A stretch of 22,980 bases of DNA, from the IMG/VR virus record IMGVR_UViG_3300034198_016214, positions 1-22,980 of that record; one strand, 5' to 3'. This DNA comes from a virus. A program made the translations under genes and the position numbers. The notes below the pieces were generated by a model. That model saw nothing but the letters and a program-made list of their open reading frames with translations, made no database searches and was not told the origin of the DNA. Shown piece by piece: positions 2,471 through 21,892 of this stretch (position 1 is its first letter; the number at the start of each line of letters is the position of its first letter).

Positions 2471-2872
2471 ATGACCCCCCGAGAATCCGCCCGCCGCGCC
2501 TGGGAATCCGATTGCACCGCGTCCTTTGATCGCGCGGAAATGCTTTGCCTGCTTCACGGCACCGTCATTTCCACCCCCCGGCTTTACATCATGGCCGCAT
2601 TTTTCCCTCTGAACACCCCCCATCACATCCTCAACTCGATTTCACGACAACACCGCCACATGACAACCACCGGCCCATTGTGTCATGTTTGGCTCGCTGC
2701 AGGGAAATTGCCGGAACTTCTCGCCTTACTCGCGGATTTCCCGTGCATTTCCCACATTTCATTTCAAAAACGAGGCTATGAAATAATCACCCTACCAATC
2801 CACCGACTCCATGGGAAAAGGACCAAAACCACCACCACCACCGCCCCCGCCGGTGACCTCGACGAATATTGA
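2471..2872 (+). CDS. Conserved-looking hypothetical protein upstream of the portal cluster
   Basis: A predicted 133-aa protein, 24 nt after the DpdA-like gene. No family can be named. Its middle has the texture of a folded domain: MLCLLHGTVISTPRLYIMAAFFPL, then CHVWLAAGKLPELLALLADFP and ISFQKRGYEIITLPIHRLHGK, with hydrophobic strands and a Trp-Leu-Ala-Ala-Gly segment. I recall similar small proteins upstream of portals in podovirus-like genomes, but cannot verify this. The last 62 nt overlap the next gene in another frame; in that stretch the protein is Thr-rich (KRTKTTTTTAPAG) because it reads the proline run of its neighbour, so the C-terminus may be unconstrained. The first copy of the 25-nt repeat motif lies inside the gene. 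Confidence 0.6.
   Translation: MTPRESARRAWESDCTASFDRAEMLCLLHGTVISTPRLYIMAAFFPLNTPHHILNSISRQHRHMTTTGPLCHVWLAAGKLPELLALLADFPCISHISFQKRGYEIITLPIHRLHGKRTKTTTTTAPAGDLDEY
2641..2665 (+). promoter_or_regulatory. 25-nt repeated motif, copy 1 (candidate phage control element)
   Basis: The copy begins TTCACGACAA, has C at position 13 and G at position 15, and ends CACATGACA at positions 17-25. The same 21 invariant positions recur at 6267 and 21839, all on the + strand. It sits 170 nt before the start of the small Pro-rich gene that opens the portal cluster, inside the preceding coding sequence. A promoter for a phage RNA polymerase is the favoured reading from size, orientation and placement; this is inference. 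The last 8 bases also form the left arm of a hairpin. Confidence 0.55.
2658..2688 (+). other. Perfect 8-bp inverted repeat overlapping motif copy 1
   Basis: ACATGACA at 2658-2665 pairs with TGTCATGT at 2681-2688 across a 15-nt loop. Only three T residues follow, so it is a poor intrinsic terminator. It may be an operator-like dyad, an RNA hairpin near the 5' end of a transcript started at the motif, or coincidence within a coding region. Confidence 0.4.
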
Positions 2873-2984
2873 CAAAGCATTCGCAGAGGACCAGCAGAAG
2901 CGCAAACAGCGCCAGCGGTATTCGTATTCCGATACCATCCTCGCCGCGCCCGCCACCCCCGTCGCAAAAGAAACCCTCGGGTAA
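2811..2984 (+). CDS. Small Pro-rich pre-portal protein (57 aa)
   Basis: A 57-aa protein beginning MGKGPK followed by eight prolines, then a charged helix (KAFAEDQQKRKQRQR) and a tail SYSDTILAAPATPVAKETLG. Many podovirus genomes code a short protein of this layout directly before the portal: a Gly/Lys/Pro start, a basic helix, a Ser/Thr-Ile-Leu element and a Leu-Gly end. Its role is unknown; a virion or connector accessory role is plausible. The stop and the portal start share bases as taATG, so the two are probably translationally coupled. It overlaps the end of the upstream 133-aa gene by 62 nt. It is short enough to be missed by gene callers with a 60-codon cutoff. Confidence 0.8.
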   Translation: MGKGPKPPPPPPPPVTSTNIDKAFAEDQQKRKQRQRYSYSDTILAAPATPVAKETLG

Positions 2985-4636
2985 TGCAGGACGACCTCAC
3001 AAAGCAAGTTCTCGCGGAAGTCACTTCGCTGGAAGCCGATCGCCAGTTATTTGACAGCCTATGGCAAGACCTCGCCAAAGTCTGCATGCCGCGAAAACAA
3101 GTCACCCGGAAAAGCAACAGCATACCTGATACAACCGACATCGAGGAACAGCTTGACGTTACCGCCCAACAGTCAAACCAAACCCTCGCCGCCGGGCAAA
3201 TGGCCCACATCACCCCCATGGGCGGCGCGGAATGGTTTCGCCTGGAACCACCGCACAAACTCGCCAACGTCCCCGCCGCAGTCCGCTGGTATTCGGAGCT
3301 TTCCGTAACCATCGCCCGCGCCCTGGCAAACAGCAATTTCTACAACGAAGCGCACGAACACTACCTTGACCGCGGAGCTTTCGGCATTGCCGCCATGGAA
3401 GTCACCGCAGGGCCCGGCGGCATGGGCGTGCATTTCCGCAGCTTCCACATCGGCACCTACTCAGTCGCAGAGGATGAATTCGGCAAAGTCAACCGCATCG
3501 CCCGCCGCTACAAGATCACCGCGCAACAAGCCGTCGGATTCTTCGGACCCGATGCCAACCTTCCCGATCCGATCCGCAAAGCATTCGACAACGGCACCAC
3601 CGAGAAATTCGAATTCGTTCAATACATCCGCCCCAACAAAGATTACAACCCGCAAAACATCTTTTCCAAAAAGTTCGAGAGCTTCGATCTCGCTATGGGC
3701 GGGAAAAACCAGCTCATCCGCAAAACCGGCTTTCACGATTTTCCATGCGCCGTCTCCCGTTGGCAAAAATGGGGCGAGGAATCCCCCTACGGCTGGTCCC
3801 CCGCGCTTTACGCCCTGCCCCCTGCTCGACAAGCCAATCACCTGGAAACCCTGGGCGACCTTTTGGCCGAGAATGCCGCCTTCCCCCGCATGCTCCTGCC
3901 CAGCAGCATGAAAGGAGAAATTGACCTTCGCCCCGGCGGCGCATCGTATTATGACGTTGCCATGGGAGCCGCCGAAATGCCCCGCGAATGGCTCACCCAA
4001 GGCCGCTATGACATCCTCGAAGCCCGCCTTGACCGCAAGAAACAAGCCATCGAAGCCGCATTTTTCGTGCAGCTTTTCGAATTGATCACCGAGAAACAAA
4101 AATCCATGACCGCCTACGAAGTCTCGCAGTTGGTCAGCGAGAAAGGCGCATTGTTTCACCCCATCTTTGTCCGCGCCGTAGTGGAGTTTCTTACCCCCAT
4201 CATTCTCCGCGTGTATTCCTTGCTTGCCCGGCAGCCCGGTGCCTTGCCCCCACCACCGCCGGAAGTCATCATGCAAGGCCCCAGCGGCCCGGAGCTTCCC
4301 GACCCGGAAGTCACCTACATTTCCCCGCTGGCCCTCGCCATCACCCAGAATCAAGTCAACGGCCTGCCAAACGTCCTGCAACAGCTTGCCCTCATTGGCC
4401 AGATTGACCCCACGGTTTATGATTCTGTCGCCACCGAGGAAATTTACCCCACCCTCGCCCGCGCCAGTGGCCTGCCGGAAAAACTCATCCGCACCCCGGA
4501 AACCGTTGCCAACATCCAACAAAGCCGCGCCCAAGCCCAGCAAATGGCCCAGGCCGAGCAACTCGCCGGCGCCGCCGGAAAACTAGGCGGTGCCGAAGGT
4601 ATCGATAAACTTTCGCAAATGCTCCCACAACAGTGA
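2984..4636 (+). CDS. Portal protein (T7 gp8-type head-to-tail connector)
   Basis: A predicted 550-aa protein, close to the 536 aa of T7 gp8. The dodecameric portal forms the DNA entry channel, nucleates head assembly with the scaffold and docks the tail tube. Features matching the podovirus connector family: an N-terminal helix with LFDSLWQDLAKVCMPR; HIGTYSVAEDEFGKVNRIAR near residues 155-175 followed by YKITAQQAVGFFG; SPYGWSPALYALPPARQANHLE near 265-285; a C-terminal MTAYEVSQLVSEKGALFHP segment near 370-390 followed by VEFLTPIILRVYSLL and a Pro run (LPPPPPE). The last 50 residues are Ala/Gln-rich helix, as expected for the crown region. The start overlaps the upstream stop (taATG) and the end overlaps the next start (gTGA). 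No Shine-Dalgarno sequence is present. Confidence 0.95.
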   Translation: MQDDLTKQVLAEVTSLEADRQLFDSLWQDLAKVCMPRKQVTRKSNSIPDTTDIEEQLDVTAQQSNQTLAAGQMAHITPMGGAEWFRLEPPHKLANVPAAVRWYSELSVTIARALANSNFYNEAHEHYLDRGAFGIAAMEVTAGPGGMGVHFRSFHIGTYSVAEDEFGKVNRIARRYKITAQQAVGFFGPDANLPDPIRKAFDNGTTEKFEFVQYIRPNKDYNPQNIFSKKFESFDLAMGGKNQLIRKTGFHDFPCAVSRWQKWGEESPYGWSPALYALPPARQANHLETLGDLLAENAAFPRMLLPSSMKGEIDLRPGGASYYDVAMGAAEMPREWLTQGRYDILEARLDRKKQAIEAAFFVQLFELITEKQKSMTAYEVSQLVSEKGALFHPIFVRAVVEFLTPIILRVYSLLARQPGALPPPPPEVIMQGPSGPELPDPEVTYISPLALAITQNQVNGLPNVLQQLALIGQIDPTVYDSVATEEIYPTLARASGLPEKLIRTPETVANIQQSRAQAQQMAQAEQLAGAAGKLGGAEGIDKLSQMLPQQ

Positions 4637-4881
4637 CCAAAGCAGAACAAGCCGCACGCGATTTGCAGGAAGCCTACCGGCACATTTTCGCCGGTCCCCA
4701 TGGCGATCTTGTCAAAGCCGACCTCCGCGCCAAGTTCCGCCTCGATGCCCCATGTTTCATCGTTGGCAGCGAGTCATGGCAACCCGCATTCCGCGACGGC
4801 GCAAAGTCCGTGATACACTACATTTTTGAGCAAATAGAATCTATTCCAAACGAACAACAAACACCGACCATCATCAAATGA
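4633..4881 (+). CDS. Bbp19-like small phage protein
   Basis: A predicted 82-aa protein with a GTG start overlapping the portal stop (gTGA). It contains LQEAYRHIFAGPHGDLVKADLRAKF, the Tyr-x-x-x-Phe...Gly...Val-x-x-Asp-Leu pattern of the small family typified by Bordetella phage Bbp19, followed by a GSESWQPAFRDGAKSVIHYI segment in the place of the family's Gly-Arg-Arg-x-Val helix. These proteins occur immediately after the portal in several podovirus-like genomes; their function is unsettled. The end overlaps the next gene as ATGA. The assignment is by motif memory and order only. Confidence 0.7.
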   Translation: MTKAEQAARDLQEAYRHIFAGPHGDLVKADLRAKFRLDAPCFIVGSESWQPAFRDGAKSVIHYIFEQIESIPNEQQTPTIIK

Positions 4882-5324
4882 CCATTTCATTTACACCCAA
4901 CAGCGCGGGTTACTTAGTCAGGCAAGAGCTTGAAGGAAAAAAAAAATCAATCGGCAATTTCATCCCCGGCCCCGAGGAAGGCACATGGATTTTCCAGCCA
5001 AAGCCCGGCATCACCCTGGCCGAAACCGCCATGGAAACCGTGGACGAAAAATTCATCGCCTACCTGGAACGCCAGAACCACACCACCCCCAAAGAATCCC
5101 CCGGCGATGGCGCAGCCACCCCGCCACCGCGCCCCGATCAAGACCCCGCTTTGGGTGCCATGGGTGATGAATTCATGAAGTGGGCCGCCCTCTACATGCC
5201 CGATGAAGAATTCACCATGCATTACGGCTACTTGTGGGCGCGGAAATCCTTTCGCAACAACTTTGCCAAAGACCCCGCTTTCATCGACCGCTGCACCAAC
5301 TCATTTCCGCCCGATTGCATCTGA
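4878..5324 (+). CDS. Hypothetical protein between portal and scaffold
   Basis: A predicted 148-aa protein overlapping the previous stop (ATGA). The N-terminus (ISFTPNSAGYLVRQELEGKKKSIGNFI) looks like a short beta-rich fold; the middle (residues about 65-95) is Pro/Asp-rich and probably flexible; the C-terminal part FMKWAALYMPDEEFTMHYGYLWARKSFRNN is aromatic and helical. No family is recognised. The position suggests a head-assembly accessory role. A run of ten A residues at 4937-4946 codes Lys-Lys-Lys and could allow slippage or hide a sequencing indel; the zero frame continues cleanly through it. Confidence 0.7.
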   Translation: MTISFTPNSAGYLVRQELEGKKKSIGNFIPGPEEGTWIFQPKPGITLAETAMETVDEKFIAYLERQNHTTPKESPGDGAATPPPRPDQDPALGAMGDEFMKWAALYMPDEEFTMHYGYLWARKSFRNNFAKDPAFIDRCTNSFPPDCI

Positions 5325-5330
5325 TTCAAA

Positions 5331-5349
5331 TCACTGATCACTGATCACT
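5331..5349 (+). repeat. Short tandem repeat TCACTGA
   Basis: Two full copies of TCACTGA plus a partial third (TCACT) fill the middle of the 47-nt gap before the scaffold gene, creating two overlapping TGATCA palindromes. A related string, CACTGATCACTG, occurs inside the giant gene near 18365. No function is visible; it may be a binding site or simple-sequence drift. Confidence 0.6.
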
Positions 5350-5371
5350 TCACACTAGCCACTTAATCCCC

Positions 5372-6250
5372 ATGCCCGACCTCCTCGACACTCCACCCGC
5401 AGTACCAGCCCCCGCAACCCCCGCGGCCACACCAGCAACCTTGCTCGATGCCCCCGCATCCAACACCCCAGCCCCCGCGCCGACCGACTGGAAAAAAGAC
5501 CTCCCAGATGGCTGGATTTCCGCCCTGGGCGATAACTTCGCTCCCCACGCGGAAGCCCTGAAAAACTTCAAGTCGGTGGACGACCTCGCCAAAAGCTATT
5601 TGCATTTCCGCAAGACCGGCCCCGCCTACCCCACCGAGGACAGCACCCCGCAGGACATCGAGCGATTCCGCGTTCTTGCCAACGTCCCCGCCACCCCGGA
5701 AGGCTACGGCCTCACCAAACCGGAGAACCTACCCGCCGGTGCCGAGTGGGATGAATCCATTGCCGCGGAGATTGCCGCCGTCGCCCACAAACACCACGTA
5801 CCCGCCCCGGCCTTGAAAGCCCTGGCCGATGCCCAACTTGCCGCCGAGAACCGCCGCGCGGAAGCCTACGCCAAGGAACAAGTCGCCGCACAGGAAAAAC
5901 TCCGCGCCGAACTCACCGGCCTTCTTGGCACCGGCGAGACATGGACGCTCAACGCCGGCAACATCCGCCACACCATCGGCACACTGGCGGAAAAGGCCAA
6001 CATCGATCCCCAAGACCCCGGTATCATTGCCCTATTCAGCAACGGCCCCGCCCTGAAAATTTTTCACCAGATTTCCCAGATGATGAACGAGGACGGCGCA
6101 CGCCGCCCCACTGGCTACGGCGATCTTCGCAACGACCGCCAACGCGCCCAAGACATCATGGACGGCAAAGACCCCGAATGGGGATCCAAATACAAAGCCG
6201 GCGACAAAGAAGCCATCGCCCGCGTCGCCCGCTTGCTGCAAAGCAAGTAA
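5372..6250 (+). CDS. Scaffolding / head assembly protein
   Basis: A predicted 292-aa protein, close to the 307 aa of T7 gp9. Scaffolds guide capsid protein into procapsids and then leave. The first 45 residues are almost only Ala, Pro and Thr and probably disordered. After DWKKDLPDGWISALGD comes a domain common in phage scaffold-position proteins (LKNFKSVDDLAKSYLHFRK, then a Pro-rich ANVPATPEGYGLTKPENLP near residues 105-125), a long charged Ala-rich helix (about 130-200) that fits the elongated scaffold shape, and a C-terminal MMNEDGARRP...DPEWGSKYKAGDKEAIARVARLLQ. It lies directly before the major capsid gene, and a strong terminator follows its stop. No Shine-Dalgarno sequence is seen at the ATG. 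The exact family is not certain; the role is inferred from order, size and composition. Confidence 0.85.
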   Translation: MPDLLDTPPAVPAPATPAATPATLLDAPASNTPAPAPTDWKKDLPDGWISALGDNFAPHAEALKNFKSVDDLAKSYLHFRKTGPAYPTEDSTPQDIERFRVLANVPATPEGYGLTKPENLPAGAEWDESIAAEIAAVAHKHHVPAPALKALADAQLAAENRRAEAYAKEQVAAQEKLRAELTGLLGTGETWTLNAGNIRHTIGTLAEKANIDPQDPGIIALFSNGPALKIFHQISQMMNEDGARRPTGYGDLRNDRQRAQDIMDGKDPEWGSKYKAGDKEAIARVARLLQSK

Positions 6251-6266
6251 TTCGTAGCAAAAACAT

Positions 6267-6291
6267 TTCACGACAATCCCGCCACATGACA
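6267..6291 (+). promoter_or_regulatory. 25-nt repeated motif, copy 2, upstream of the capsid unit
   Basis: The same 21 invariant positions as the copies at 2641 and 21839: TTCACGACAA first, C at 13, G at 15, CACATGACA last. It is intergenic, 16 nt after the scaffold stop and 210 nt before the capsid start. Its variable positions are those that make the left arm of the overlapping terminator hairpin pair perfectly. A promoter reading predicts that read-through from scaffold ends here while new capsid transcripts begin here. Confidence 0.6.
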
Positions 6292-6306
6292 AGTGGCGGG
6301 ATTTTT
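6275..6306 (+). terminator. Intrinsic terminator after the scaffold gene
   Basis: A perfect 11-bp stem (6275-6285 with 6293-6303; arms AATCCCGCCAC and GTGGCGGGATT), a 7-nt loop and a T-run reaching 6306. It is placed 24 nt after the scaffold stop codon. It overlaps repeat motif copy 2. The hairpin may alternatively act as a 5' stabilising structure for a transcript that begins in the motif. Confidence 0.85.
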
Positions 6307-6331
6307 GCAATTATGCCCCCGTTCGTCATTC

Positions 6332-6411
6332 AGCGCGGCCCACCTGGTCACCAGACCCGCGCAGGAAAACGACTCAGGACCAGGACAACGACCCGCAGAG
6401 CGCGGCCCACC
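6332..6411 (+). repeat. 13-nt direct repeat in the capsid leader
   Basis: AGCGCGGCCCACC occurs at 6332-6344 and again at 6399-6411, 67 nt apart, inside the gene-free 226-nt stretch before the capsid gene. Between the copies lies the dyad CTGGTCACCAG (6344-6354). Apart from the motif and terminator, no other structure or coding sequence is recognised in 6251-6476, which is probably the capsid mRNA leader. The repeats could be binding sites; this is unproven. Confidence 0.55.
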
Positions 6412-6476
6412 GATTGCCGGAACTACCCATTCCATCAACCGCTACCCGCTTCATCACAATCTAACAACTCTGCAAT

Positions 6477-7424
6477 ATGTCTGACAACCTTTATATCCCA
6501 GATCACGCCCGCATCATGTTCGCCAACACCTGGCGCGATGCGATCCAACAAAAAGAATCACGGCTTCGCGGCCTGGTCAACATCCAGACCGGATGCACCG
6601 GCAGCTCATCGACCATCGACATCGGTGGAATCGTGGAAGGCGAAGACGTAACCGGCCAACGCTTCAAAGAAGTGGCGATCAACGAATCGCTTTCCACTCA
6701 GCGCTGGGTTTATCCCGTCGAGTATCAACTTGCCACCCACGAAAGCCGCTGGGATGCCAACAGCATCGCCCCGCTCGTTGCACCAGGAGGCAAAGCAGCC
6801 GGTGAACACACCGCCGCTTACAGCCGCTTTGTGGACCGTCACTTGCTGGCGCAAATGCTGGGCAATGCCACCGAAACCACCCAAGGCAGCGCAACCCCTA
6901 CCACCGTCGCCCTTCCCGCCGCTCAAAAAGTGGCAGTGAACTACAACGGCACCGCATCCCCGGCCAACTGCAACCTGACCACTGAAAAACTGCTTCGCGC
7001 TCTCGAAATCCTCGAAATCGCGGAAGTGTGGGGCAAGGATCAAATGGAATCCGGCGCAAAAGTCTGCATTGCCGTGAACTCAAAAGCCACCAAGGCACTT
7101 CTCCGCGAAGTGAATTCCGGTTTGGCTGCAAAGCTAATGTCGAAAGATTTCATGCCTCCTGTGCTGGATAAAAACAGCCACATCAGTGAATACCTCGGCA
7201 TCAACTTCATTCGCACCGAGCTTGTCACCGTCACCAGCTCGATTGCTTACATGCCCATGTGGGTTAGCAATTGCGTTCAGTTGAACTTCTGGGAAGACAT
7301 GAGCATGTCGATTGACAAGCTCCCCACCCGTTCCAACGCCCTTCAATTCCTGACCCAAGGCCGCCTTGGCGCAACCCGGATCGAAGACGAAGGAGTCGTT
7401 CAAATTGCCGCCGATCAATCCTGA
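6477..7424 (+). CDS. Major capsid protein
   Basis: A predicted 315-aa protein, similar in size to T7 gp10A (345 aa), expected to form the icosahedral shell with the HK97 fold. Recognisable traits are the start DNLYIPDHARIMFANTWRDAIQQKESRLRG, where an N-terminal arm leads into an Asp-x-x-Arg helix as in phage capsid-like families; a beta segment STIDIGGIVEGEDVTGQRFKEV; an Ala-rich spine helix near residues 175-190 (LLRALEILEIAEVWG); KVCIAVNSKATKALLREVNSG; YLGINFIRTEL; and the conclusion WEDMSMSIDKLP...LGATRIEDEGVVQI, typical of capsid C-termini. It follows the scaffold and is flanked by terminators on both sides of the two-gene unit, consistent with very high separate expression. The ATG at 6477 lies in an AT-rich context with no Shine-Dalgarno sequence. 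Confidence 0.9.
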   Translation: MSDNLYIPDHARIMFANTWRDAIQQKESRLRGLVNIQTGCTGSSSTIDIGGIVEGEDVTGQRFKEVAINESLSTQRWVYPVEYQLATHESRWDANSIAPLVAPGGKAAGEHTAAYSRFVDRHLLAQMLGNATETTQGSATPTTVALPAAQKVAVNYNGTASPANCNLTTEKLLRALEILEIAEVWGKDQMESGAKVCIAVNSKATKALLREVNSGLAAKLMSKDFMPPVLDKNSHISEYLGINFIRTELVTVTSSIAYMPMWVSNCVQLNFWEDMSMSIDKLPTRSNALQFLTQGRLGATRIEDEGVVQIAADQS

Positions 7425-7461
7425 TTCTAACCAGCAACCAACCATCAACTGAACTAACATT

Positions 7462-7914
7462 ATGGCTAATTTCCAAACAAACATCGCCGCCAAAGAAGGC
7501 AAAATCGGCGGGGCCGGTCTTATTGACCCGACGCTATACCAAGGCAATGTCCGTTACGCAATCGCCACTTTGGCGATTACCACGGGCATGGCAGCTAACG
7601 ACACCTTCGACGTTTGCGCAGACCTCCCAGCAGGCGCGCGGATTCTCCCGCAGTTGTCGCGCTTTGTCTGTCACGGCGACCCCGGCACCACGCTGACGAT
7701 CAGCATTGGCGACAGCGGAAACAGTGCTCGTTACTGTTCCGCCGCTGTTCTCAGTTCCGGCGGCATCGTGGAGTTTTGCACGGCAAACATTCCCGCCGCA
7801 GTAACTACCCCCGTTAAGCTCACCAGCGCGCGCGGAATCACCGGCTTGATTGCCAGTGCTACCAGCCTCACCGCGACGAACATCGACATCATGTTCGCCT
7901 ACGTCGTCGGCTAA
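7462..7914 (+). CDS. Probable capsid decoration / minor head protein
   Basis: A predicted 150-aa protein, 37 nt after the capsid gene and within the same terminator-bounded unit. It is rich in Ala, Thr, Gly and Ile in alternating beta-strand patterns (VRYAIATLAITTGMAAND, RILPQLSRFVCHGDPGTTLTISIGDSG, TNIDIMFAYVV) with few charges, as expected for a beta-sandwich virion protein. Co-transcription with the capsid gene and the composition suggest a head decoration or cement protein. No specific family is recognised, so the role is inferred. A head-tail joining protein is the alternative. Confidence 0.75.
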   Translation: MANFQTNIAAKEGKIGGAGLIDPTLYQGNVRYAIATLAITTGMAANDTFDVCADLPAGARILPQLSRFVCHGDPGTTLTISIGDSGNSARYCSAAVLSSGGIVEFCTANIPAAVTTPVKLTSARGITGLIASATSLTATNIDIMFAYVVG

Positions 7915-7948
7915 GTCTTCCTGTTGTTGTAAGTGTTCGAAATCATAG

Positions 7949-7980
7949 CAGGGAGGCGTTTCAAAGCGTCTCCCTGTTTT
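7949..7980 (+). terminator. Intrinsic terminator after the capsid unit
   Basis: A 10-bp stem (CAGGGAGGCG at 7949-7958 with CGTCTCCCTG at 7967-7976, one G-U pair), an 8-nt loop and TTTT at 7977-7980. It lies in the 79-nt gap after the decoration-type gene and just before tail tubular A. It would end the capsid transcript or lower tail-gene expression relative to capsid. Confidence 0.85.
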
Positions 7981-7993
7981 CCTTTACCCCATT

Positions 7994-8614
7994 ATGGCCT
8001 ACGCTACAAAAGATGCCCTTTGCAATGCCGCCCTGAACTTTCTCGGCGAACCGGATGCCACCCCCTTCACCGGCGGCACCACCGTGCGGGACGTTGCCTG
8101 TTCCCGCCACTACGATCAAGCCTTGCAACACGTCCTCATGCTTCACCGTTGGGACTTCGCCACGGACCTGCACACCCTGGCCGCCGTCAGCAGCCAGCCA
8201 TCAAATAAACCCGCTGATTTCCCCGTCGCCTACACTCTCCCATCGGACTACTTGCGCTTGCAGGAAATCATTCTTTCCACCGGGTTTAGAAAAAACACCT
8301 TCCGCCTTCTCGGTTCTTACTTATGGCTGGAAACAACCGGAATCGTGGGAAAAATCGTTTACACCAAAAACGACGTTGCCACCACCGCCATGCCCAGCAC
8401 TTTCGCCGATTGCGTGATGATGGAACTTTGCAAGCGCATGGCCCCCATGCTCACCCAGGACGCGCAGAAGATGGAGCAGATGCACGCCCAGCACCGCGAG
8501 ACATTCGCCCACGCCACCGCCGCGGAAACCCGCATGAGTCGCAGCAACGAAAACACCAGCCCGCTCGATCTCGCTTATCAATCCGAGGTATTCCTTTCCC
8601 GCTTCCGCCGATGA
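7994..8614 (+). CDS. Tail tubular protein A (T7 gp11-type adaptor)
   Basis: A predicted 206-aa protein against 196 aa for T7 gp11. It would form the ring that joins the portal to the tail nozzle. Diagnostic pieces: ATKDALCNAALNFLGEPDATPF at the N-terminus (the family's Leu-Asn-x-x-Leu-Gly-x-x-Pro element), then CSRHYDQALQHVLMLHRWDFA near residues 38-55, where a Tyr/Arg helix ends in the near-invariant Trp-Asp/Asn-Phe-Ala, a PSDYLRLQEI strand and a VMMELCKRMAPML helix. The stop overlaps the next start as ATGA. A terminator lies immediately upstream, so expression depends on read-through or on an unseen promoter between 7980 and 7994. Confidence 0.92.
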   Translation: MAYATKDALCNAALNFLGEPDATPFTGGTTVRDVACSRHYDQALQHVLMLHRWDFATDLHTLAAVSSQPSNKPADFPVAYTLPSDYLRLQEIILSTGFRKNTFRLLGSYLWLETTGIVGKIVYTKNDVATTAMPSTFADCVMMELCKRMAPMLTQDAQKMEQMHAQHRETFAHATAAETRMSRSNENTSPLDLAYQSEVFLSRFRR

Positions 8615-12229: not shown

Positions 12230-12232
12230 CCC

Positions 12233-14281
12233 ATGGCAATTCCCATCGTTCAAATCCCCTCCCTCGATCCGCAATCCATCGGCTACGCCACACCCTCCGC
12301 GCAAGCCCTCGCTGGCCCCACCGCAGCCCTGGGCGAAGTCGCGCGCGGCATTGCCGAAGTCGGCGGAGAACTAGGCCAGCACGCCGCCCAGGTGCAGCAA
12401 ATGGAAAACGCCTTTCAGGAAAGCGAAGCCCGCCAGAAAATCGCCGGAGAATTTGCCAATCTCGATCTTGAGTTGCAGCGCAATACCGACCCCGCCACCT
12501 ACGCAAAAAAGCTCGATGAGACGTTGCAGCGCACCGGTGCCATTGTGCAAAATGAATCATTCGCGCCAAGTGTTCGCATGAACCTTGCCAAGGATCACAG
12601 CGACATCGCCGCGCAGCAACGCATCAAAACCGCGCAGCTTGCCGCCAGCATGACCGCCAAGCGCGCGGCCCTCGCCCTGAAAAATGAAATGGATGCCGCC
12701 CGCACCTACGGCGACCGCCCCGCTTTCGAATCCGCCTTAAATCGCGGCGGAGATGCCGGATTGGTATTGCCAGAGCAAAAACAATCTGCCTTGTTGGAAT
12801 TCGATCAATACGAATCCTACAATGCCATGGCAAAAGCCATCGATGCCGACCCGCAAACTTTGCTGGAACAACTCAACAGCGAGGATTTCCAAAACAATCA
12901 CCCGCTCATCACCCCTGAAAACCGCGAGCGCCTGCAAAGCTACGCCGTCAAAAAAAACAATCTCCACAAAGCGGAAACATGGGACCAAATCGCCATTGCT
13001 GGCATGGAAGGTACGATTCTTTCCCGCGAGGACATTTTGACCATGGCAAAGGAAGGCGACATTTCCCCCGCCCAGGCAGGCAGTTACATCAATGCCTACC
13101 ACGGCCCCACACCACCAACGCACGACCCGCTACTTTTCGAATCAGCCCGCTCGCAGATTCTCGCCTACGACCCCGCCAACGACGAATCCGGCGCCATCCG
13201 CGCACAGATCGCCGCCAACATCGCCACGCTGGCCTTGCCAAAAGAATCCATCCGCGAGCTGCAAAACCAATTCCAGGCCCGCGTTGATCCAAAGAAATCC
13301 GAGCAACCCAGACACCGCCTTGCCGCCGAATACGAAAAACGCCTTGACCAGGAATGGAAAACCGAGGCTTTTGGAAATTGGTTCGAATACCAAAAAAACC
13401 CCATTGACGGCCGCATTGCCCAGAAGATCATCAACGAAAAAGACTTCGACACCGCCCTTTCCTACAAGGACAAGGTGAGCCGCTATTTCAACCACTGGCT
13501 AAACCAGCAGCCCGACGACCTGGATCCGCTCGATGCGGGCAAGAAATACAACGAGATCAAAGCAGACATTCTCAAAAATCACACTCCGGTTGACATTGAG
13601 ATTCCGTCTTTCGCCCCAATCCCCACCTTTACCGATCCACTGGAAGGCACCACGCCCAACGATGCCCCCGGCGAATTTCCAAAAACGTCATACATCCCGA
13701 ACGCTCACAACAGAGAATCCACCATCCCATACGAAAAAGGAGGGCCGGCCGCCAATGTCCGCTACAACAACCCGGCAGCAGCATGGCCCCGACCCGCAGA
13801 CGTGAAATATGGACTCATCGGCTATGGCAAACTCAACGACGGCGAAGGAAATAAAATCGGCCGCTTTCCTACGCCGGTCCAAGGAGCCGCTGCAAACTTT
13901 GATTTATTTGCCAGCAATTACAAAGGCATGACCATAAAGGATGCCATGACAAAATGGCGGGGCCGACCATCGCCCGCACCAGCGGGATATGATCCGAACG
14001 AAGTAATCACCAGCGATTTTCTGCAAAACCCATCAAAGGCCATTGATTTTTTCAAGAAGATGGCACTACACGAAAGCCCAACATTCAACACCATGAATGA
14101 TGGTGATTGGAAAAAAGCATGGAGCATGTGGAAAACCTTATCTCATTCCTACACTGGCACGCTGGAAGAACGCAAAACCAGTTTTTTCAAAACCCAAAAA
14201 CCCCGCACCGCCGATGAAGTCATGACCGGACTTCATTCCGTTTACGACGACTATTATCAGCAACTAGCCACCGAATCCTAA
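12233..14281 (+). CDS. Internal virion protein, T7 gp15-position, with C-terminal P5/transglycosylase-like domain
   Basis: A predicted 682-aa protein against 747 aa for T7 gp15. Residues 1-460 are mostly helical and charged (VQQMENAFQESEARQKIAGEF, LAASMTAKRAALALKNEMDAAR), fitting the tubular gp15 fold that spans the periplasm. A Pro-rich linker (about 460-500) leads to a distinct domain at about 505-640: NVRYNNPAAAWPRP, LIGYGKLNDGEGNKIGRFPTPVQGAAANFDLFASNY and MTIKDAMTKWRG. This resembles the P5/structural-protein-type peptidoglycan domain (Asn-Pro...Phe-x-Thr/Ser-Pro-x-x-Gly...Tyr...Thr-Ile-x-x-x-x-x-x-Trp). If active it would open cell wall during ejection. E630 in MALHES is a conceivable catalytic acid, not established. 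The end shares its last base with the next ATG (taATG). Confidence 0.75.
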   Translation: MAIPIVQIPSLDPQSIGYATPSAQALAGPTAALGEVARGIAEVGGELGQHAAQVQQMENAFQESEARQKIAGEFANLDLELQRNTDPATYAKKLDETLQRTGAIVQNESFAPSVRMNLAKDHSDIAAQQRIKTAQLAASMTAKRAALALKNEMDAARTYGDRPAFESALNRGGDAGLVLPEQKQSALLEFDQYESYNAMAKAIDADPQTLLEQLNSEDFQNNHPLITPENRERLQSYAVKKNNLHKAETWDQIAIAGMEGTILSREDILTMAKEGDISPAQAGSYINAYHGPTPPTHDPLLFESARSQILAYDPANDESGAIRAQIAANIATLALPKESIRELQNQFQARVDPKKSEQPRHRLAAEYEKRLDQEWKTEAFGNWFEYQKNPIDGRIAQKIINEKDFDTALSYKDKVSRYFNHWLNQQPDDLDPLDAGKKYNEIKADILKNHTPVDIEIPSFAPIPTFTDPLEGTTPNDAPGEFPKTSYIPNAHNRESTIPYEKGGPAANVRYNNPAAAWPRPADVKYGLIGYGKLNDGEGNKIGRFPTPVQGAAANFDLFASNYKGMTIKDAMTKWRGRPSPAPAGYDPNEVITSDFLQNPSKAIDFFKKMALHESPTFNTMNDGDWKKAWSMWKTLSHSYTGTLEERKTSFFKTQKPRTADEVMTGLHSVYDDYYQQLATES

Positions 14282-17200
14282 TGCCCGACGTTCTCCCGCT
14301 TCCCGATACCACCGACCTGCAAATGGAACTCGGCGCGCCGATCCCCGGCGAGGACGAGGCATGGACGGCCTACAACATGCTCAAGGACGAACGCGCAGCA
14401 GGCAAGCCGATGCCACCGGACATCCGCAGCAAAGCCGTGCAGACATGGACCACCTACCGCGACACCACCAAACGCTTCAACCGCCAGCTATTCCCAAAGC
14501 AAGTCGCCCCGATGCTCGAGCAGCGCAAGAAATGGCAGGACGGCTTACTATCCGGCCTCGATCAACTCCCGCAGCACTTGACCCCGGAGCAAGGAAAAGC
14601 CCTTTCCACCCGCCTTGCCATCTTCCCGGAAACCGAGCGACCCGAGGAAATCGCCCGCACCGCCAATTACGCCCTGCTTTCCGCCACAGTCGGCCAGAAG
14701 ATCAAGCCGGAGGCATGGCCCGCTTTCCGCACCGCCTACGCCAAGAACGTGTTGAAGATCGATGACACCACCGATACCGGCATTTACAACGAACTCAAAC
14801 GCCGCAACGACGTAAAGCTTGATGCCGACAAGAACCTTTCCGGCGACTTGGAAATCCTTTACCCGCAGGCCATTGCCGGCGCGAAGATCGACCTCAAAGC
14901 CCACGGCGACCAATACCGTCAACTATTCCCCCCGGAAATCGCCCAGGCAGCGGAGTTCGAGCTACGCACGCAACTAAACACCGCTCGCCAGCAAGGCAAG
15001 CGCATCCGCCCGATCGGTGATGCCTTGCTGAAATTCACCCTACAAGAATCCTTTCGACAGGAGCTTGTCACCCCACCGGAACCCGGCGACGCACCTATCC
15101 CCGGCACGCTGGGCGAAGCCGCCCGACGTTTCGAAGACCTATCGGAAGCGGACAAGACCGCGACCGCCATTTACCTGAACCAGAAGCTTCGCAATCTCCC
15201 GCCGGATCAAGCCGGCCTTGCCGAACGTTTCGCCGAAGCCATGGGAAATACCGCCATCGAAGGCGGGCGATCCGCCCTGAACTTTGTCAACCGCGCCGCG
15301 CTCGATGCCGCAGGCGGCACCACCAAGGACCATGAAACATGGCAGCAGTGGCTCAACGCATCCGGCTACTTGCGCGGCAAGGCCGCCAACATCCGCAGCA
15401 TCGTGCAGCCCACCGACACCTGGGGCAAACTCAGCCTGTTGGCCGCCGGCGAACAGCTCCCCTACATGATTGCCGCAGCAGGCGGTCCCGTCGGCATGGC
15501 CCTGAACGGTCTTGGTATGGCCGGCCAATCGTACGAACAAGCACGCCAGCGCAACCCGGAGGGGAACGACCTTGCTCAATTCACCGCCGCCGCTGCCTCA
15601 GGATTTACGCAGTCGGCGCTCGAGACACAGGCCACCAAGATCACCGGCCGGGCCATCGGCGCGCTTCCCGGCCTCCGCAGCACGTTCGGCGCGAAGTTTG
15701 GCACGGAGTCATTCCTGAAACTCGCAGGCATTCAAAACAACCTCCTACGCGCTGCCACCGGCGGGGCCCTCACCGCGGGCCTTGTCGGCGTGACGGAATA
15801 CGGAGAAGAATGGTCTCAGGACGTTGCCGATCGCACCTTGCAGGACATCGCCAGCATTGCCACCGGAGTCACCGACGACACCGGCGCACCATCCACGATG
15901 TTCAAGAACCTGAAAACCGTAACGCAGTCATGGGACCCGCGCACGGAAAAAGGCTCGAAAATGCTTCTCTCCCTGCTTCCCTTTATCATCATCGGCGGCG
16001 GCGGCGGCGGTTTTGCCTCATTTCAAAACGGCCACATCCTCAAAGAAAACGCCGCAGCGATGGAAGCCCTGGGAGTCCCCGCCCCAGTGATCAATGAGAT
16101 TGTCACCACCCCGGACATCACCAAGGCGGAATCCCTCTTGAAAGAAGCCTTGCAAGTGGAACAAATCGAAATCGACAAGAGCAAGGCAAATGCCCTGTCC
16201 GATTGGATTGACGACAAAGAAAACGCTCTGAAACAACTCGGCATTTCTTTGATCGTCCCCGAGATGAACAGCTTCACCGAGGAACAACAATACCGCGTCA
16301 ATTTCCCCGACGGTCCGAAGTATTTCAACACCCTAGAAGAATCCCACGCCGCCATTTACGAGAAAACCCGCGAACTTGAGAACCAATACATCGAAAGCGG
16401 CCGCGAAGCCCTCACCACGGAAACGGTCGATTTCCTCATGGAACCCGGCCAACGAGCCGCCCAGGGTGATTTCCGCGTGAAGCAACAGGACTTCCAAAGC
16501 ACCATCCCCGAGCTTTTGAAAAAGGGCCTTGTCACCAAGGAGCAAGTTCTTTCCCGCGCCGAAGCCATGGCGTACCAACTCGGCATTACCCAATCCGATG
16601 CCCTCGCCCAGATCAACAGCGGCCGTGTTCGCATCGCCGCCCGCAATTTCATCGAGCAGATCGGCAAGAAGGCCAACCGCTACGTGATCGAGCTTTTCCA
16701 AGGAGCCGACCCGATCAACGCGATTGAGGACTTCGCCGAAGCATTCTGGAAGGCAGGCGAATTCGAAGGACTTTACAAACCGGAACAGGCCATCGGCTGG
16801 ATTCGTGAAGCGGAAGATTCCACCGGCAACAGCTACTTGCCCAAGGATTTCACTTGGACCCCCGGCGGCGAAAACATGCCATTCTGGGAAGCACTCGGCC
16901 AACTCTCCCGCCAGCACGCCCTGGGCAATCACGACAACATCAGCTTTCCCAAAGGCTTCAAGCAGTGGATCGAAATGATGCTCATGGTCATGGGCCAGGC
17001 GTGGCAATGGTTTAAGGACCTTACCCAAGGAAAGGAACTACAAACTGCCATCACCGGCGGCATGCTCAACAAGAAATTTGTCGGCATGCTTTCCGATTCC
17101 ATCGGCCTGAACGAGAAAATGCGCGAGCAACGTGTCATCGAGCAAGAATCCGCCAACGCCCGCGCGGACTTCATGGACGAATTCCCCGCCCTCACCGATC

Positions 17201-20200
17201 GAATCAAGGGCAAACTCCTGCACCCCGCCCGCGCCTGGCAGGACGGCAATCCACTCGCCGGCGAACTCCAAAAGATTTACGATGAGCTGGTCGTTTCCCA
17301 CAAGAAAACCAGCAAGTCAGGCCGCAAAACTTGGCAGAAATACAACATCGCCGCAGAAAATTTCTTCGCCCCCCGCACCGAGTCGGTGAACATGTCCGAC
17401 CTATTCCAAACCATGCAAGGCGAAGGCTTCACATTCGATTCCATCGCCGAAATGCTTGATGCCGTAGAGGATGCCATGTTCTACGGCAAAGAATCCTACG
17501 CCACCCACGGCGGCCTCGCCACAAACCAAATCGCCGCAGGCTACCGGCAGAGTTTTTCCCTCTCGCGCGATCCTGTTGACAGCAATGGTAAAATTCCCGT
17601 GATGCCACTTGACCAAAATAATGACGCCGCCTTGGCGAACCAAGACGGCGAAAATCAGGTGCCAAACACCACGCAAAGCGTGCTCAATGTCGGCTCGCTC
17701 AATATGATTGAATACCGCCAAACGGTCAAGAATTTTTTTGCCGCTCCTGCAAGTATCGCAGGAGCCTTGCAGCAAATTACCCGATTACTTAAGCGCAGCG
17801 GAATTACTTATGAACAAGAAGACAGCAAAAAATCACAAAGCGCCTACATTCACATCACCAAAAAAACAGGGGAAGAAATTAATGTCATTTACAAAATTCG
17901 CATTTCCGACCACGAATTGCCCGACAAATATTCACAAGACTGGGATTCGCAAGTATATGTGAACTGGACCAGTCGCAGCAATTCCCCCAATCGTTACGGA
18001 AACGAACACTGGTTTCCTGCTACCATTCAAGCTATCGAAACAGCAGGAGGAAAACTTACCGCTAAAGATTCCCAACAATTTGCGGAATACCTTGCCAAAC
18101 AGAGAGAGAAAAACGTTTCCATGGCAGCGGAGCAAATAGCAGCTAAAGAAAGACAACAGCAACAATTATCGAAAACTAAAAAAATCGCTTTATGGGCCGC
18201 AGAAAATATGTCTGCTTCATGGGATGAAATTCAACGCATTCAAACCAGCCTTGATGAAACGAACGAATATGGGAACGCGCTCAGTGGACAACCAAGAAAA
18301 GAAGCCAAACAAGAACTGAAAAAATTATGGGATAAAATCACTTTGCAATTTTCAAAAGCTTTCCCACTGATCACTGCTGACTCACCACTCAACACTTCTT
18401 TCTCCCTTTCCCGCGACACCAACACCAGCCTGGAAGCCCTCATTGAAGCCCGCATGAACCGCGGACCGGAGGAACGCGTGCGCATGCTCGAAACCATGCG
18501 CACCCGCCTGCAAGCCATCGTTGCCAAGCTGGAAGACCGCCGCGACGGCCTGCTTTCGCCCATGGAAAAACAGCTTCTCGGCTGGCGCGGCAATGACGAC
18601 CTCACCCCGGAGCAGCGCGAGCGTCTCCGCATCGAAGATGCCATGGCCGCAGTCAAAGGCGTGATAAACTCCCTCCCCGTGGAAATCCGCTCGAAAGTCG
18701 CCATTCCCATCACCCGCATTCTCGATGCCGATACCGACCTGAAAACCACCAACGCTTTCCGCGAACTCATCCAGAACGCCGACAACGTGATTGAGGAATT
18801 CCTACAAGAATCCTACACCGAGCGCATCGCCAACATCCTCGACACCGCCCGCCCAACATCCAGCGAATCCAGACAAAACAAAACCCTGCTCACCCCGGAA
18901 ACCCAGCGGCAAATTGATTCCATCGATGAGATTGTTCAGATGGAAGAATTGCAAGTCATCGCCGCCGAAGCCGCAGCGGAGGCCCAAATCATCGCCTTGC
19001 AAGATCAAATCGATTCCCTCGACCAGGCCGATCCCGACCACGACACCAAAGCCCGCGCCATCACCCGCCAGCAAATCGAATTCGTCCAGCGGCTCGACCA
19101 AATCCACACCTTCGGCAGTCTGGGCAAAGCATCATCCCCAGAACTTTCCAACGCCTACGAGAAACTCCACCGCCTCTACACCACCGGCAGATACGCCCGC
19201 AAGAGCATCGATCAAGCCAGCCGCGAACAACTTCGCGCCAGCCGTCAGGACATCAAGGAAGCCGTCGGCAGGCCCGACGGCGTGACCGGCCCGGAACATT
19301 CCCGCGCCACAACTAAGACATGGTTTGGCGGTCTGAAAGAATCCGCAAAAGCCTACGCCCTGGAACACCTGAACTTTCACGAAGTTCTCGAAACCCTATT
19401 CCCGAACTCGATCACCGCCCAGCAGTGGAGCAAGAAAGCCATCGCCGCTATGCGTGGCACCAAACGCCGCCGCCTTGCCGCGTCCGACCGCTTCAATGCC
19501 TTCATGGCCGACCGCTTCGGTGCCACCACCACCCTTGCCCGCGGGCGCATCCTCGCCGAGCTATCGGAAAAGAAAGACCTCGCCATCCGCACCCGCGAGG
19601 CCGGCAAGCCGCGCATGGAAAAAGTCCCCATCGAAATGGTCCCGCGCATTCTCAACGGCCAACTCCCGCAATCCTGGTCGAATGATTTCATCGCCATGGA
19701 ACAACTCCGCCAGGCATGGCGCGATTACCAGCTTTCCCCGAAAAAATCCCGCTCCCGCATCCAATCGTTGAAAATCCAGTTCGTCGAAACATGGAAACCC
19801 GCCGACAATCTCCACCTATCACAACTTGAAATCCTCGACGTTCTCATGACCTACGCGCAGGAAGGCTATCGCCCCAGCCTGCACAAGTATGGCTTCAACG
19901 AACAAGCCATCGCCGAGCTGCAGGCGATCCTTGACCCCCGCACCGTGAAAATCCACGCATGGCTGCAATCGGAATACGAAACCGGCTGGGCGGAACTCAA
20001 CCCGGTCTATCAGTCACTTTTCAACATGGACATGCCCCGCATCCGCAACTACGCCCCCGGCACGTTCGAAAACTTCACCAATTCCAGCGGCCAACAAACC
20101 AGCGGAAACCCGCTGGGCGGGGATCAAGGCAACGCGACGGCTATGTCCGCGGGATTCTCGAAAAACCGCCGCGCCCACCTGGCCCGCCCGAAAACAATGA

Positions 20201-21837
20201 ACGCCCTCGCCAAGTTCTGGGCGCACCACGAACAAACAAGCTACTGGATCGAATGGGCCGAGCTGGTCCGCGACATTTCCAATGTCCTACGCGAGCCGGA
20301 AACCCGCCGCGCGATCGAAGCCACCCACGGCAAAAAGCTGGCAAACGACCTCGCCCAATGGATTGACCGCCTGAACACCGATGGAGCCAGCGCAGCCCGC
20401 GAGCACATCGAAACCACCGCTTTCCTCGACCGCATCATTTCCACCAACTCCGCTCTAGCCCTGTCCTGGAATTTTGGCGTGCCATTCAAGCAGTTCTCCG
20501 CCGCCCTTGGCTCCATGGTATTTGTCCCGGCCCACGAAGCCATCAAAGCCTTCGCCCGCCTCATGACCAAACCGGAAACCTTTGCCCACATCTGGAAAAG
20601 TGAAGCAATCCAACAGCGCATCAAAGACGGATTTAGCCCCGAAGACCGCGCCGCCATGGATGCCGCAAAAGTCACCCCAAACCATCTTACGGAAATGATT
20701 GCCGCAGGCCGCTTGCCCATTTCCTACACGGACGCGGCATTCACCACCATTTCCGCCGCCATCGCCTACGATTACCACCACACCGCCGCCCTCCGCGCAG
20801 GCATGGCCCCGGAACTTGCCGAGCGCGAGGCCATGCAATACATGGACATGGTAACAGCCCGCACCGCCCAGCCGGAAAACACTCAAATGAAATCCCTCGC
20901 GGAACTCAACGCCCGCGGTGCCGGAAAATTGCTGATGATGTTCAAGTCGGATCCCCGCCGCGCCATGGGCGCCGTCATCGCCGCCGCCTGGAAAGCCCAG
21001 CGCAGCCAATCCCCCGCCGATGCCGCGCACTTCGCCCAGGTTTTTGTCACCCAATGGGTTTTGTATGGCATTCTCGCCCAATTAGGCGGCAACATATTCA
21101 AAAATCTCACCACCGATTCCGACGACGACGACGACCCGCAACCTTTCATCGATTGGAAAGCCTACGCCGTCGCCGCCCTACTCGGTCCCATCGAAGGTCT
21201 GTTTGTTTTCGGTGCCATTGCCAACGCCGTGAAAAAGATTCTGGGAGTGAAAGTCTTCACCAACTCCATGAACCCGCTCGATGATTACATCGGCCGCGGA
21301 ATCAGCGCCATGCAGAAAAAAGACAGCACCGCTCTGGAAATTCTCAGCGGCCAAGGCGTGCTGAACGCCGTTGGCATGGTCGGCGGTGCCGTCAATCGCC
21401 CCGAGGCCGCTTTGCTCCCCATCCTCGCCCGCGCATCCCGCCAGGCGCTTGGCGCAGTGGACAACCTCACAACCACCGAGGAAGAAAAACAAAAGCGCAT
21501 AATCCGCGACACCCGCGAAGCCTACACCAACGACCGCACCACCCGCGCCGATTCCCTTGATTCCGTGATTTCACAAGCCATGGCCCTGCCCCTGGCCGAG
21601 CGCGATGCCCTCATTCAAACCCTCGACGAGAAGGACCGCCGCAAAGCCCGCGCCAAGATCACCGAGCTTGAAAAACAAAAGTCCATGACCGATCCCGAGA
21701 AAATGCTGGCAAAACTCCCCACCGCCGCCCGCCAGATCGCCGCCGCGGAGATTCACAAAACCATCACCGACCCCGCCGCCCGCGCCCAACACGCCGCCAG
21801 GATGAAAGAACTGTTCGAAATCGAATTCCAAAATTGA
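14281..21837 (+). CDS. Giant multidomain internal virion / large polyvalent protein (2518 aa, T7 gp16 position)
   Basis: A single uninterrupted frame covering a third of the window, in the slot of T7 gp16 (1318 aa). The N-terminal 330 residues are helical and charged. Glycine-rich hydrophobic stretches follow: about 384-425 (LLAAGEQLPYMIAAAGGPVG), 487-505 (LRAATGGALTAGLVGVTEYG) and 559-580 (LLSLLPFIIIGGGGGGF), suited to membrane insertion. The module at 1098-1372 is bounded by SFSLSRD copies and differs in base composition. Residues about 1840-1930 (LEILDVLMTYAQEGYRPSLHKYG ... MPRIRNYAPGTF) and 2195-2235 (TARTAQPENTQMKSLAELNARG, KLLMMFKSDPRRA) recall large polyvalent proteins of phages and conjugative elements. 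Two more hydrophobic segments (about 2253-2275, 2294-2320) flank an acidic DSDDDDD at 2279-2285. Probable role: packaged in the head and ejected to form the trans-envelope channel. No catalytic site is identified. Confidence 0.8.
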   Translation: MPDVLPLPDTTDLQMELGAPIPGEDEAWTAYNMLKDERAAGKPMPPDIRSKAVQTWTTYRDTTKRFNRQLFPKQVAPMLEQRKKWQDGLLSGLDQLPQHLTPEQGKALSTRLAIFPETERPEEIARTANYALLSATVGQKIKPEAWPAFRTAYAKNVLKIDDTTDTGIYNELKRRNDVKLDADKNLSGDLEILYPQAIAGAKIDLKAHGDQYRQLFPPEIAQAAEFELRTQLNTARQQGKRIRPIGDALLKFTLQESFRQELVTPPEPGDAPIPGTLGEAARRFEDLSEADKTATAIYLNQKLRNLPPDQAGLAERFAEAMGNTAIEGGRSALNFVNRAALDAAGGTTKDHETWQQWLNASGYLRGKAANIRSIVQPTDTWGKLSLLAAGEQLPYMIAAAGGPVGMALNGLGMAGQSYEQARQRNPEGNDLAQFTAAAASGFTQSALETQATKITGRAIGALPGLRSTFGAKFGTESFLKLAGIQNNLLRAATGGALTAGLVGVTEYGEEWSQDVADRTLQDIASIATGVTDDTGAPSTMFKNLKTVTQSWDPRTEKGSKMLLSLLPFIIIGGGGGGFASFQNGHILKENAAAMEALGVPAPVINEIVTTPDITKAESLLKEALQVEQIEIDKSKANALSDWIDDKENALKQLGISLIVPEMNSFTEEQQYRVNFPDGPKYFNTLEESHAAIYEKTRELENQYIESGREALTTETVDFLMEPGQRAAQGDFRVKQQDFQSTIPELLKKGLVTKEQVLSRAEAMAYQLGITQSDALAQINSGRVRIAARNFIEQIGKKANRYVIELFQGADPINAIEDFAEAFWKAGEFEGLYKPEQAIGWIREAEDSTGNSYLPKDFTWTPGGENMPFWEALGQLSRQHALGNHDNISFPKGFKQWIEMMLMVMGQAWQWFKDLTQGKELQTAITGGMLNKKFVGMLSDSIGLNEKMREQRVIEQESANARADFMDEFPALTDRIKGKLLHPARAWQDGNPLAGELQKIYDELVVSHKKTSKSGRKTWQKYNIAAENFFAPRTESVNMSDLFQTMQGEGFTFDSIAEMLDAVEDAMFYGKESYATHGGLATNQIAAGYRQSFSLSRDPVDSNGKIPVMPLDQNNDAALANQDGENQVPNTTQSVLNVGSLNMIEYRQTVKNFFAAPASIAGALQQITRLLKRSGITYEQEDSKKSQSAYIHITKKTGEEINVIYKIRISDHELPDKYSQDWDSQVYVNWTSRSNSPNRYGNEHWFPATIQAIETAGGKLTAKDSQQFAEYLAKQREKNVSMAAEQIAAKERQQQQLSKTKKIALWAAENMSASWDEIQRIQTSLDETNEYGNALSGQPRKEAKQELKKLWDKITLQFSKAFPLITADSPLNTSFSLSRDTNTSLEALIEARMNRGPEERVRMLETMRTRLQAIVAKLEDRRDGLLSPMEKQLLGWRGNDDLTPEQRERLRIEDAMAAVKGVINSLPVEIRSKVAIPITRILDADTDLKTTNAFRELIQNADNVIEEFLQESYTERIANILDTARPTSSESRQNKTLLTPETQRQIDSIDEIVQMEELQVIAAEAAAEAQIIALQDQIDSLDQADPDHDTKARAITRQQIEFVQRLDQIHTFGSLGKASSPELSNAYEKLHRLYTTGRYARKSIDQASREQLRASRQDIKEAVGRPDGVTGPEHSRATTKTWFGGLKESAKAYALEHLNFHEVLETLFPNSITAQQWSKKAIAAMRGTKRRRLAASDRFNAFMADRFGATTTLARGRILAELSEKKDLAIRTREAGKPRMEKVPIEMVPRILNGQLPQSWSNDFIAMEQLRQAWRDYQLSPKKSRSRIQSLKIQFVETWKPADNLHLSQLEILDVLMTYAQEGYRPSLHKYGFNEQAIAELQAILDPRTVKIHAWLQSEYETGWAELNPVYQSLFNMDMPRIRNYAPGTFENFTNSSGQQTSGNPLGGDQGNATAMSAGFSKNRRAHLARPKTMNALAKFWAHHEQTSYWIEWAELVRDISNVLREPETRRAIEATHGKKLANDLAQWIDRLNTDGASAAREHIETTAFLDRIISTNSALALSWNFGVPFKQFSAALGSMVFVPAHEAIKAFARLMTKPETFAHIWKSEAIQQRIKDGFSPEDRAAMDAAKVTPNHLTEMIAAGRLPISYTDAAFTTISAAIAYDYHHTAALRAGMAPELAEREAMQYMDMVTARTAQPENTQMKSLAELNARGAGKLLMMFKSDPRRAMGAVIAAAWKAQRSQSPADAAHFAQVFVTQWVLYGILAQLGGNIFKNLTTDSDDDDDPQPFIDWKAYAVAALLGPIEGLFVFGAIANAVKKILGVKVFTNSMNPLDDYIGRGISAMQKKDSTALEILSGQGVLNAVGMVGGAVNRPEAALLPILARASRQALGAVDNLTTTEEEKQKRIIRDTREAYTNDRTTRADSLDSVISQAMALPLAERDALIQTLDEKDRRKARAKITELEKQKSMTDPEKMLAKLPTAARQIAAAEIHKTITDPAARAQHAARMKELFEIEFQN
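17551..18417 (+). other. SFSLSRD-bounded module within the giant virion protein
   Basis: The peptide SFSLSRD occurs at residues 1091-1097 (17551-17571) and 1373-1379 (18397-18417), and only there. The 21-nt coding strings match at about 15 of 21 bases, so the peptide is better conserved than the DNA. The 275 residues between them are AT-richer by eye and use A/T-ending codons more often than the flanks. The module includes a helix KNFFAAPASIAGALQQITRLLKRSG (about 1148-1172), a beta-rich part SAYIHITKKTGEEINVIYKIRISDHELPD (about 1185-1215), a Gln/Lys-rich coiled coil (about 1275-1310) and another helix pair. It may be an exchangeable domain inserted between linkers. Confidence 0.6.
17743..17765 (+). 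other. 8-bp perfect hairpin inside the SFSLSRD module
   Basis: GCTCCTGC at 17743-17750 pairs with GCAGGAGC at 17758-17765 over a 7-nt loop, within coding sequence for AAPASIAGALQ. A seven-T run lies just before the left arm rather than after the right arm, so it would terminate only in the reverse direction. It may be a relic of the source DNA of the module. Confidence 0.35.
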
Positions 21838-21838
21838 A

Positions 21839-21863
21839 TTCACGACAACACAGACACATGACA
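21839..21863 (+). promoter_or_regulatory. 25-nt repeated motif, copy 3, upstream of the fibre block
   Basis: The third copy with all 21 invariant positions (TTCACGACAA, C at 13, G at 15, CACATGACA at 17-25). It begins one base after the giant gene's stop and ends 29 nt before the next ATG. This is the only copy placed directly ahead of a gene without a long leader, which favours a promoter-like function for the small beta-rich gene and the fibre gene. No hairpin overlaps this copy. Confidence 0.6.
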
Positions 21864-21892
21864 CCGCCCGCGATTTATGGAATCATCGCCGC

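Follow-up and report, generated by a model that had tools for sequence, protein, structure and literature searches.

The window analysed here, a fragment of 22,980 bases from IMG/VR (the other half of the phage genome lies outside the record), carries the genes listed below; the copies named are those of the repeat described afterwards.

1-666, terminase
1625-2446, gene of the DpdA family (PF23859, E 3.9e-37)
2471-2872, open reading frame (ORF) that holds copy 1
2984..4636, + strand, portal (head-tail connector) gene (phrog_332, E 6.7e-101; PF12236, E 4.9e-96)
5372-6250, probable scaffold
6477..7424, + strand, major capsid gene (phrog_3437, E 5.9e-34; PF19821, E 6.3e-36)
between the capsid gene and the 2518-aa protein gene, tail tubes A and B, then internal virion proteins
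14281-21837, gene of a 2518-aa protein
21893..22165, + strand, first ORF after copy 3 (90 aa)
22167-22979, next ORF, open at the contig end

The order terminase, portal, scaffold, capsid, tail tubes A and B, internal virion proteins, and fibre is shared with HTVC010P-type (Ubiqueviridae), BPP-1-type, and ct8d5349-like podoviruses, in which proteins related to those of the window are 25-30% identical; the terminase stands directly before the portal, as in HTVC010P, BPP-1, and Podoviridae ct8d5349 and unlike T7. The 2518-aa protein has no Pfam, PHROG, or notable PDB match. The DpdA family gene suggests 7-deazaguanine modification of the phage DNA, and the related record L004 has different genes at its place. 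No clear Shine-Dalgarno sequence was found within 20 nt before the start at the 14-15 gene starts examined in the window, a possible sign of a host lineage not dependent on such sequences.

Three exact matches to a 25-nt pattern, TTCACGACAANNCNGNCACATGACA, lie at 2641-2665, 6267-6291, and 21839-21863, all on the + strand, as the first-pass annotation of this DNA had reported. That annotation also saw no fourth or reverse-strand copy and regarded chance recurrence as negligible, and both statements hold: the window has no further match on either strand with up to 3 mismatches, and 0 matches are expected by chance (100 dinucleotide shuffles of the window). With a weight matrix built from five motif copies, the three copies score 38-42 bits and the next-best place in the window 13 bits; this runner-up is the reverse strand of the hairpin of copy 2 itself, and there is no weaker fourth copy. 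The motif is absent from the 84,980 bacterial and archaeal genomes of GTDB, which makes a site of host origin unlikely, and Rfam gave no match. The features at the three copies are as follows, hexamers being scored against TTGACA and TATAAT, the assumed sigma70 preference of the host.

2641..2659, + strand, upstream box of copy 1, TTCACGACAACACCGCCAC, inside the ORF at 2471-2872
2660..2665, + strand, -35-like hexamer ATGACA of copy 1 (5/6 to TTGACA)
2683..2688, + strand, weak -10 candidate TCATGT of copy 1 (2/6 at spacer 17)
2684-2689, + strand, alternative -10 candidate CATGTT of copy 1 (3/6 at spacer 18)
6267..6285, + strand, upstream box of copy 2, TTCACGACAATCCCGCCAC, its 3' part being the 5' arm of the terminator
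6275..6306, + strand, intrinsic terminator overlapping copy 2, stem TCCCGCCAC / GTGGCGGGA, then TTTTT
6286..6291, + strand, -35-like hexamer ATGACA of copy 2, in the terminator loop
6309..6314, + strand, -10-like hexamer AATTAT of copy 2, with TG in front
6321..6476, + strand, predicted capsid 5' leader
21839..21857, + strand, upstream box of copy 3, TTCACGACAACACAGACAC
21858..21863, + strand, -35-like hexamer ATGACA of copy 3
21881..21886, + strand, -10-like hexamer AATCAT of copy 3, with TG in front

The copies had been described as standing in front of the portal, capsid, and fibre blocks. The first two of these identities are borne out by family matches; for those that follow copy 3 no ORF gave a convincing family match, so "fibre" is only a positional label. 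The surroundings of the copies also differ: copy 1, 343 nt upstream of the portal start, is not intergenic, copy 2 overlaps an intrinsic terminator, and copy 3 falls within the 55-nt gap after the 2518-aa gene.

The first-pass annotation had proposed a search of related phages, and the motif is present at the same places in two of them. L004, with 92% portal identity, has copy 1 at 1438 with two differences, which fall in the same codon, and in the position of copy 2 it has a box with a changed end, TTCACGACAACCCGGACACTATTCA; L005, with 96% portal identity, has copy 2. L006, with 56% portal identity, does not have the motif sequence of the window; no direct repeat in it is longer than a pair of 34 nt, TTCNCACCTGCCACCCGCGCCAGNTGNCNGNATG, of which one member, at 368-401, lies in the homologous ORF before the portal and the other stands before the capsid gene, preceded by a terminator. 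The members of this pair match at 23/25 positions, against a shuffle maximum of 19. When the window and L006 sites are aligned without gaps on ATGACA, ten columns of the box plus -35 hexamer are invariant, and on these common columns the two repeats look like diverged versions of one element. Direct half-sites inside the box (CACGACA / CACATGACA) were considered and dropped, as they are not kept in L006. Beyond these relatives, aligning the portal to IMG/VR brought up no more than distant relatives and aligning it to GTDB brought up none, while a search with the L006 portal found only itself. A relaxed motif search of IMG/VR added a single match, in L023, which was taken as chance for want of the ATGACA end and of flanking features; apart from this apparent chance match, neither the window form nor the L006 form was found elsewhere in IMG/VR. 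Comparable repeats before portal and capsid were also sought in HTVC010P, HTVC024P, BPP-1, ct8d5349, and ctVRi840; pairs above the level of 20 shuffles do occur, none of them forming a consistent repeat, and no comparable repeat is evident at these places in genomes of the HTVC010P, BPP-1, and ct8d5349 types.

A plain sigma70 scan of the window gave two matches that fall on copies 2 and 3, ATGACA-17-AATTAT and ATGACA-17-AATCAT, and it is from these that the idea of the 3' end of the motif as a -35 element arose. TATAAT matches were then scored at offsets from -80 to +89 around ATGACA at the five independent sites, three in the window and two in L006. The offset of the 17-nt spacer is the top of the 170, with 18/30 against a mean of 6.8 (sd 2.8, thus about 4 sd) and a next-best sum of 13, a result from only five independent sites, two of which (copies 2 and 3) gave rise to the idea. 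With random anchors, a sum of 18 occurs at a frequency of 1e-5 or less for spacers of 16-18, of 9.5e-5 when AT-matched, and of 2.8e-4 over all 170 offsets. The L006 sites, which had no part in forming the idea, fit the 17-nt spacer: their -10 hexamers, TATGCT and TATCTT, each match at 4/6 at exactly 17 nt, with a per-site background of 2.7%. Four of the five independent sites, two in the window and both in L006, thus have a TATAAT-like hexamer at a downstream distance of exactly 17 nt, and the A at position 2 and the T at position 6 are present in 4/5. The -35 hexamer is ATGACA (5/6) in the three window copies and L006 copy 2, and TTGTCG (4/6) in L006 copy 1. At copy 2 of L004 the box is kept and the -35 place reads TATTCA (3/6). 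The -10 matches at spacer 17 do not exceed 4/6, a value reached by window copies 2 and 3, the two L006 sites, and L004 copy 2. Copy 1 is the weakest site for a -10 match and the exception, so the 17-nt rule holds for two of the three window copies; the L004 counterpart of copy 1 is poor as well (2/6 at spacer 17, 3/6 at 18). A 19-nt box just upstream of the -35 hexamer is common to all copies, those of the relatives included.

At copy 2, the hairpin TCCCGCCAC ATGACAA GTGGCGGGA with TTTTT folds at -21.9 kcal/mol (z -5.3). It has the stable GC-rich hairpin and subsequent T run of intrinsic (Rho-independent) terminators, and differs from these in the second role of its 5' arm and loop, which also supply the upstream box and the -35 element. 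The folds of copies 1 and 3 are unremarkable (z -0.15 and 0.86), and neither has a terminator. In L004 both arms at the corresponding place are changed and the place still folds into a hairpin (-22.2, z -4.9). At this gene junction L006 carries a terminator of its own, separate from the repeat and directly upstream of it. Taken together, the three genomes show the terminator as a kept feature of the junction, one that in the window is fused with the predicted promoter. Transcription beginning near 6321 would leave the 5' arm out of the RNA, which would thereby escape termination. The predicted capsid leader that follows is better conserved to L004 than the capsid protein is (75% amino acid identity); it has no reading frame in common with L006 and no match in phage records, and it was rejected as a structured RNA, its fold being no better than shuffles. 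For copy 3, the predicted start near 21893 coincides with the ATG of the next ORF, so that a leaderless message is possible. A literature search by wording returned no overlapping promoter and terminator, which does not show that none has been published.

These repeats are probably phage late promoters, a part of the first-pass interpretation that is well supported by synteny in the relatives and by the TATAAT-like hexamer at 17 nt. We consider it reasonably likely that they are the upstream halves of host sigma70 late promoters with an activator-bound box, copy 2 being fused with a terminator. Host RNA polymerase with its main (sigma70-type) sigma factor would read these promoters, with ATGACA, the last six bases of the motif, as the -35 element and the TATAAT-like hexamer 17 nt on as the -10 element. 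The 19-bp box, at about -54 to -36, would be bound by an activator of transcription, probably phage-made, that may switch on the portal, capsid, and distal structural units together; at the capsid promoter, transcripts from upstream would stop where capsid transcripts would start. The start of transcription at the sites, their reading by the host polymerase, and the binding of an activator to the box are what we infer from this arrangement.

Promoters of such a design are known from Mu. The late promoters of Mu, dependent on the activator C, are read by the host sigma70 polymerase, have non-consensus -10 and -35 elements, and carry the activator site immediately upstream of the -35 element (PMC4461284), and the Mor site of Mu extends from -51 to -36 (PMC4287176). 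The Mu late promoters (Plys, PI, PP, and Pmom) and Pm with its activator Mor resemble the present case in being few host sigma70 promoters with an upstream site, and the Mor site falls where the box is predicted. The Mor site is a dyad, whereas the box, by reading, has no evident inverted repeat, so the box is not filed as a Mu-type site but only as one that would work like it. Its sequence also differs from that of Mu, the present sites are known from sequence alone, and no homologue of the Mor/C activator family was found among the window proteins scanned, which stem from one half of the genome. The sequence of the signals is new; the kind of element, a switch of this sort, is well known. 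A bolder formulation is possible but rather doubtful: the copies would form an undescribed class of late promoters with a recognition factor of their own, either from an activator family not yet described or in the form of a phage polymerase encoded in the missing half, and at one promoter, merged with a terminator, one 40-bp segment would serve both to end the scaffold transcript and to start that of the capsid.

The first-pass annotation had likened the copies to promoters of phages with their own single-subunit RNA polymerase. Like the T7 late promoters phi6.5, phi10, and phi17, the copies are short, repeated on the same strand, and placed before portal-side, capsid, and distal genes; the difference in box sequence between L006 and the window clade, moreover, is of the kind seen in promoters that co-evolve with phage polymerases. 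The conserved block is nevertheless too far upstream: aligning the CAC of the motif with T7 CACTATA puts the start of the conserved part near -23, and T7-type promoter contacts do not reach that far. A T7 promoter is conserved over about 17 nt upstream and at a G-rich start, a layout that does not recur here, as 25 conserved nt are followed by variable sequence with no common G-rich start, and a TATAAT-like hexamer at 17 nt would not be expected. The polymerase gene that the annotation had proposed to look for did not appear, as PF00940 has no match among the window proteins scanned or in nine relatives (five of them complete phage records), with a positive T7 control, and no T7-type polymerase gene was found in recognisable relatives, HTVC010P, BPP-1, and ct8d5349 included. 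The 2518-aa protein was considered as a virion RNA polymerase and rejected, having neither a DFDGD nor a T7-type motif in addition to its lack of a notable PDB match. A T7-like or other phage-encoded polymerase is thus unlikely, and keeps some probability because its gene could lie in the missing genome half.

Host polymerase directed by a phage-encoded or alternative host sigma factor, with all 25 nt as an extended -35 element, would account for a conserved block that runs continuously into ATGACA. A sigma factor alone normally contacts less than 19 bp beyond the -35 element, so that the 19-bp extension seems too long for it, and the -10 hexamers, with A2 and T6 in most sites, resemble ordinary sigma70 ones; we regard this reading as quite unlikely, even though phage sigma factors are on record, for example in phiEco32 and 7-11 (PMC8948821).

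Very unlikely, in our estimate, is an RNA element in the transcript, an antitermination or processing site, with copy 2 acting on the terminator that it abuts and overlaps. The persistence of box and hairpin in L004 agrees with it, but copies 1 and 3 have neither terminator nor unusual fold, the L006 repeat comes after its terminator and not before, and the downstream -10 hexamer is left unexplained. A repressor operator or a DNA site with a role outside transcription (replication, packaging, or recombination of modules) is highly improbable: short, nearly identical repeats where modules meet could favour exchange and copy 1 does lie within a gene, but all copies point the same way, two of the three abut late genes, the -10 geometry is fixed, and the absence from bacterial and archaeal genomes speaks against a host site.

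Of the phages that are known from metagenomes alone, most have no transcription map. If the copies are host sigma70 promoters with an activator-bound box, a repeated box with fixed -35/-10 geometry would define late promoters and offer a handle for finding the activator in a podovirus group with no known polymerase of its own; one published phage of the HTVC010P type has no RNA polymerase gene and is presumed to use the host polymerase with phage regulators (PMC10504331). The fusion of terminator and promoter before the capsid gene would be a compact means both to insulate and to boost capsid expression. As a minor observation, an inverted repeat, ACATGACA / TGTCATGT, follows copy 1 (window 2658-2689) and is kept in L004; L006 copy 2 likewise has ATGACA and then TGTCAT, but at a different distance.
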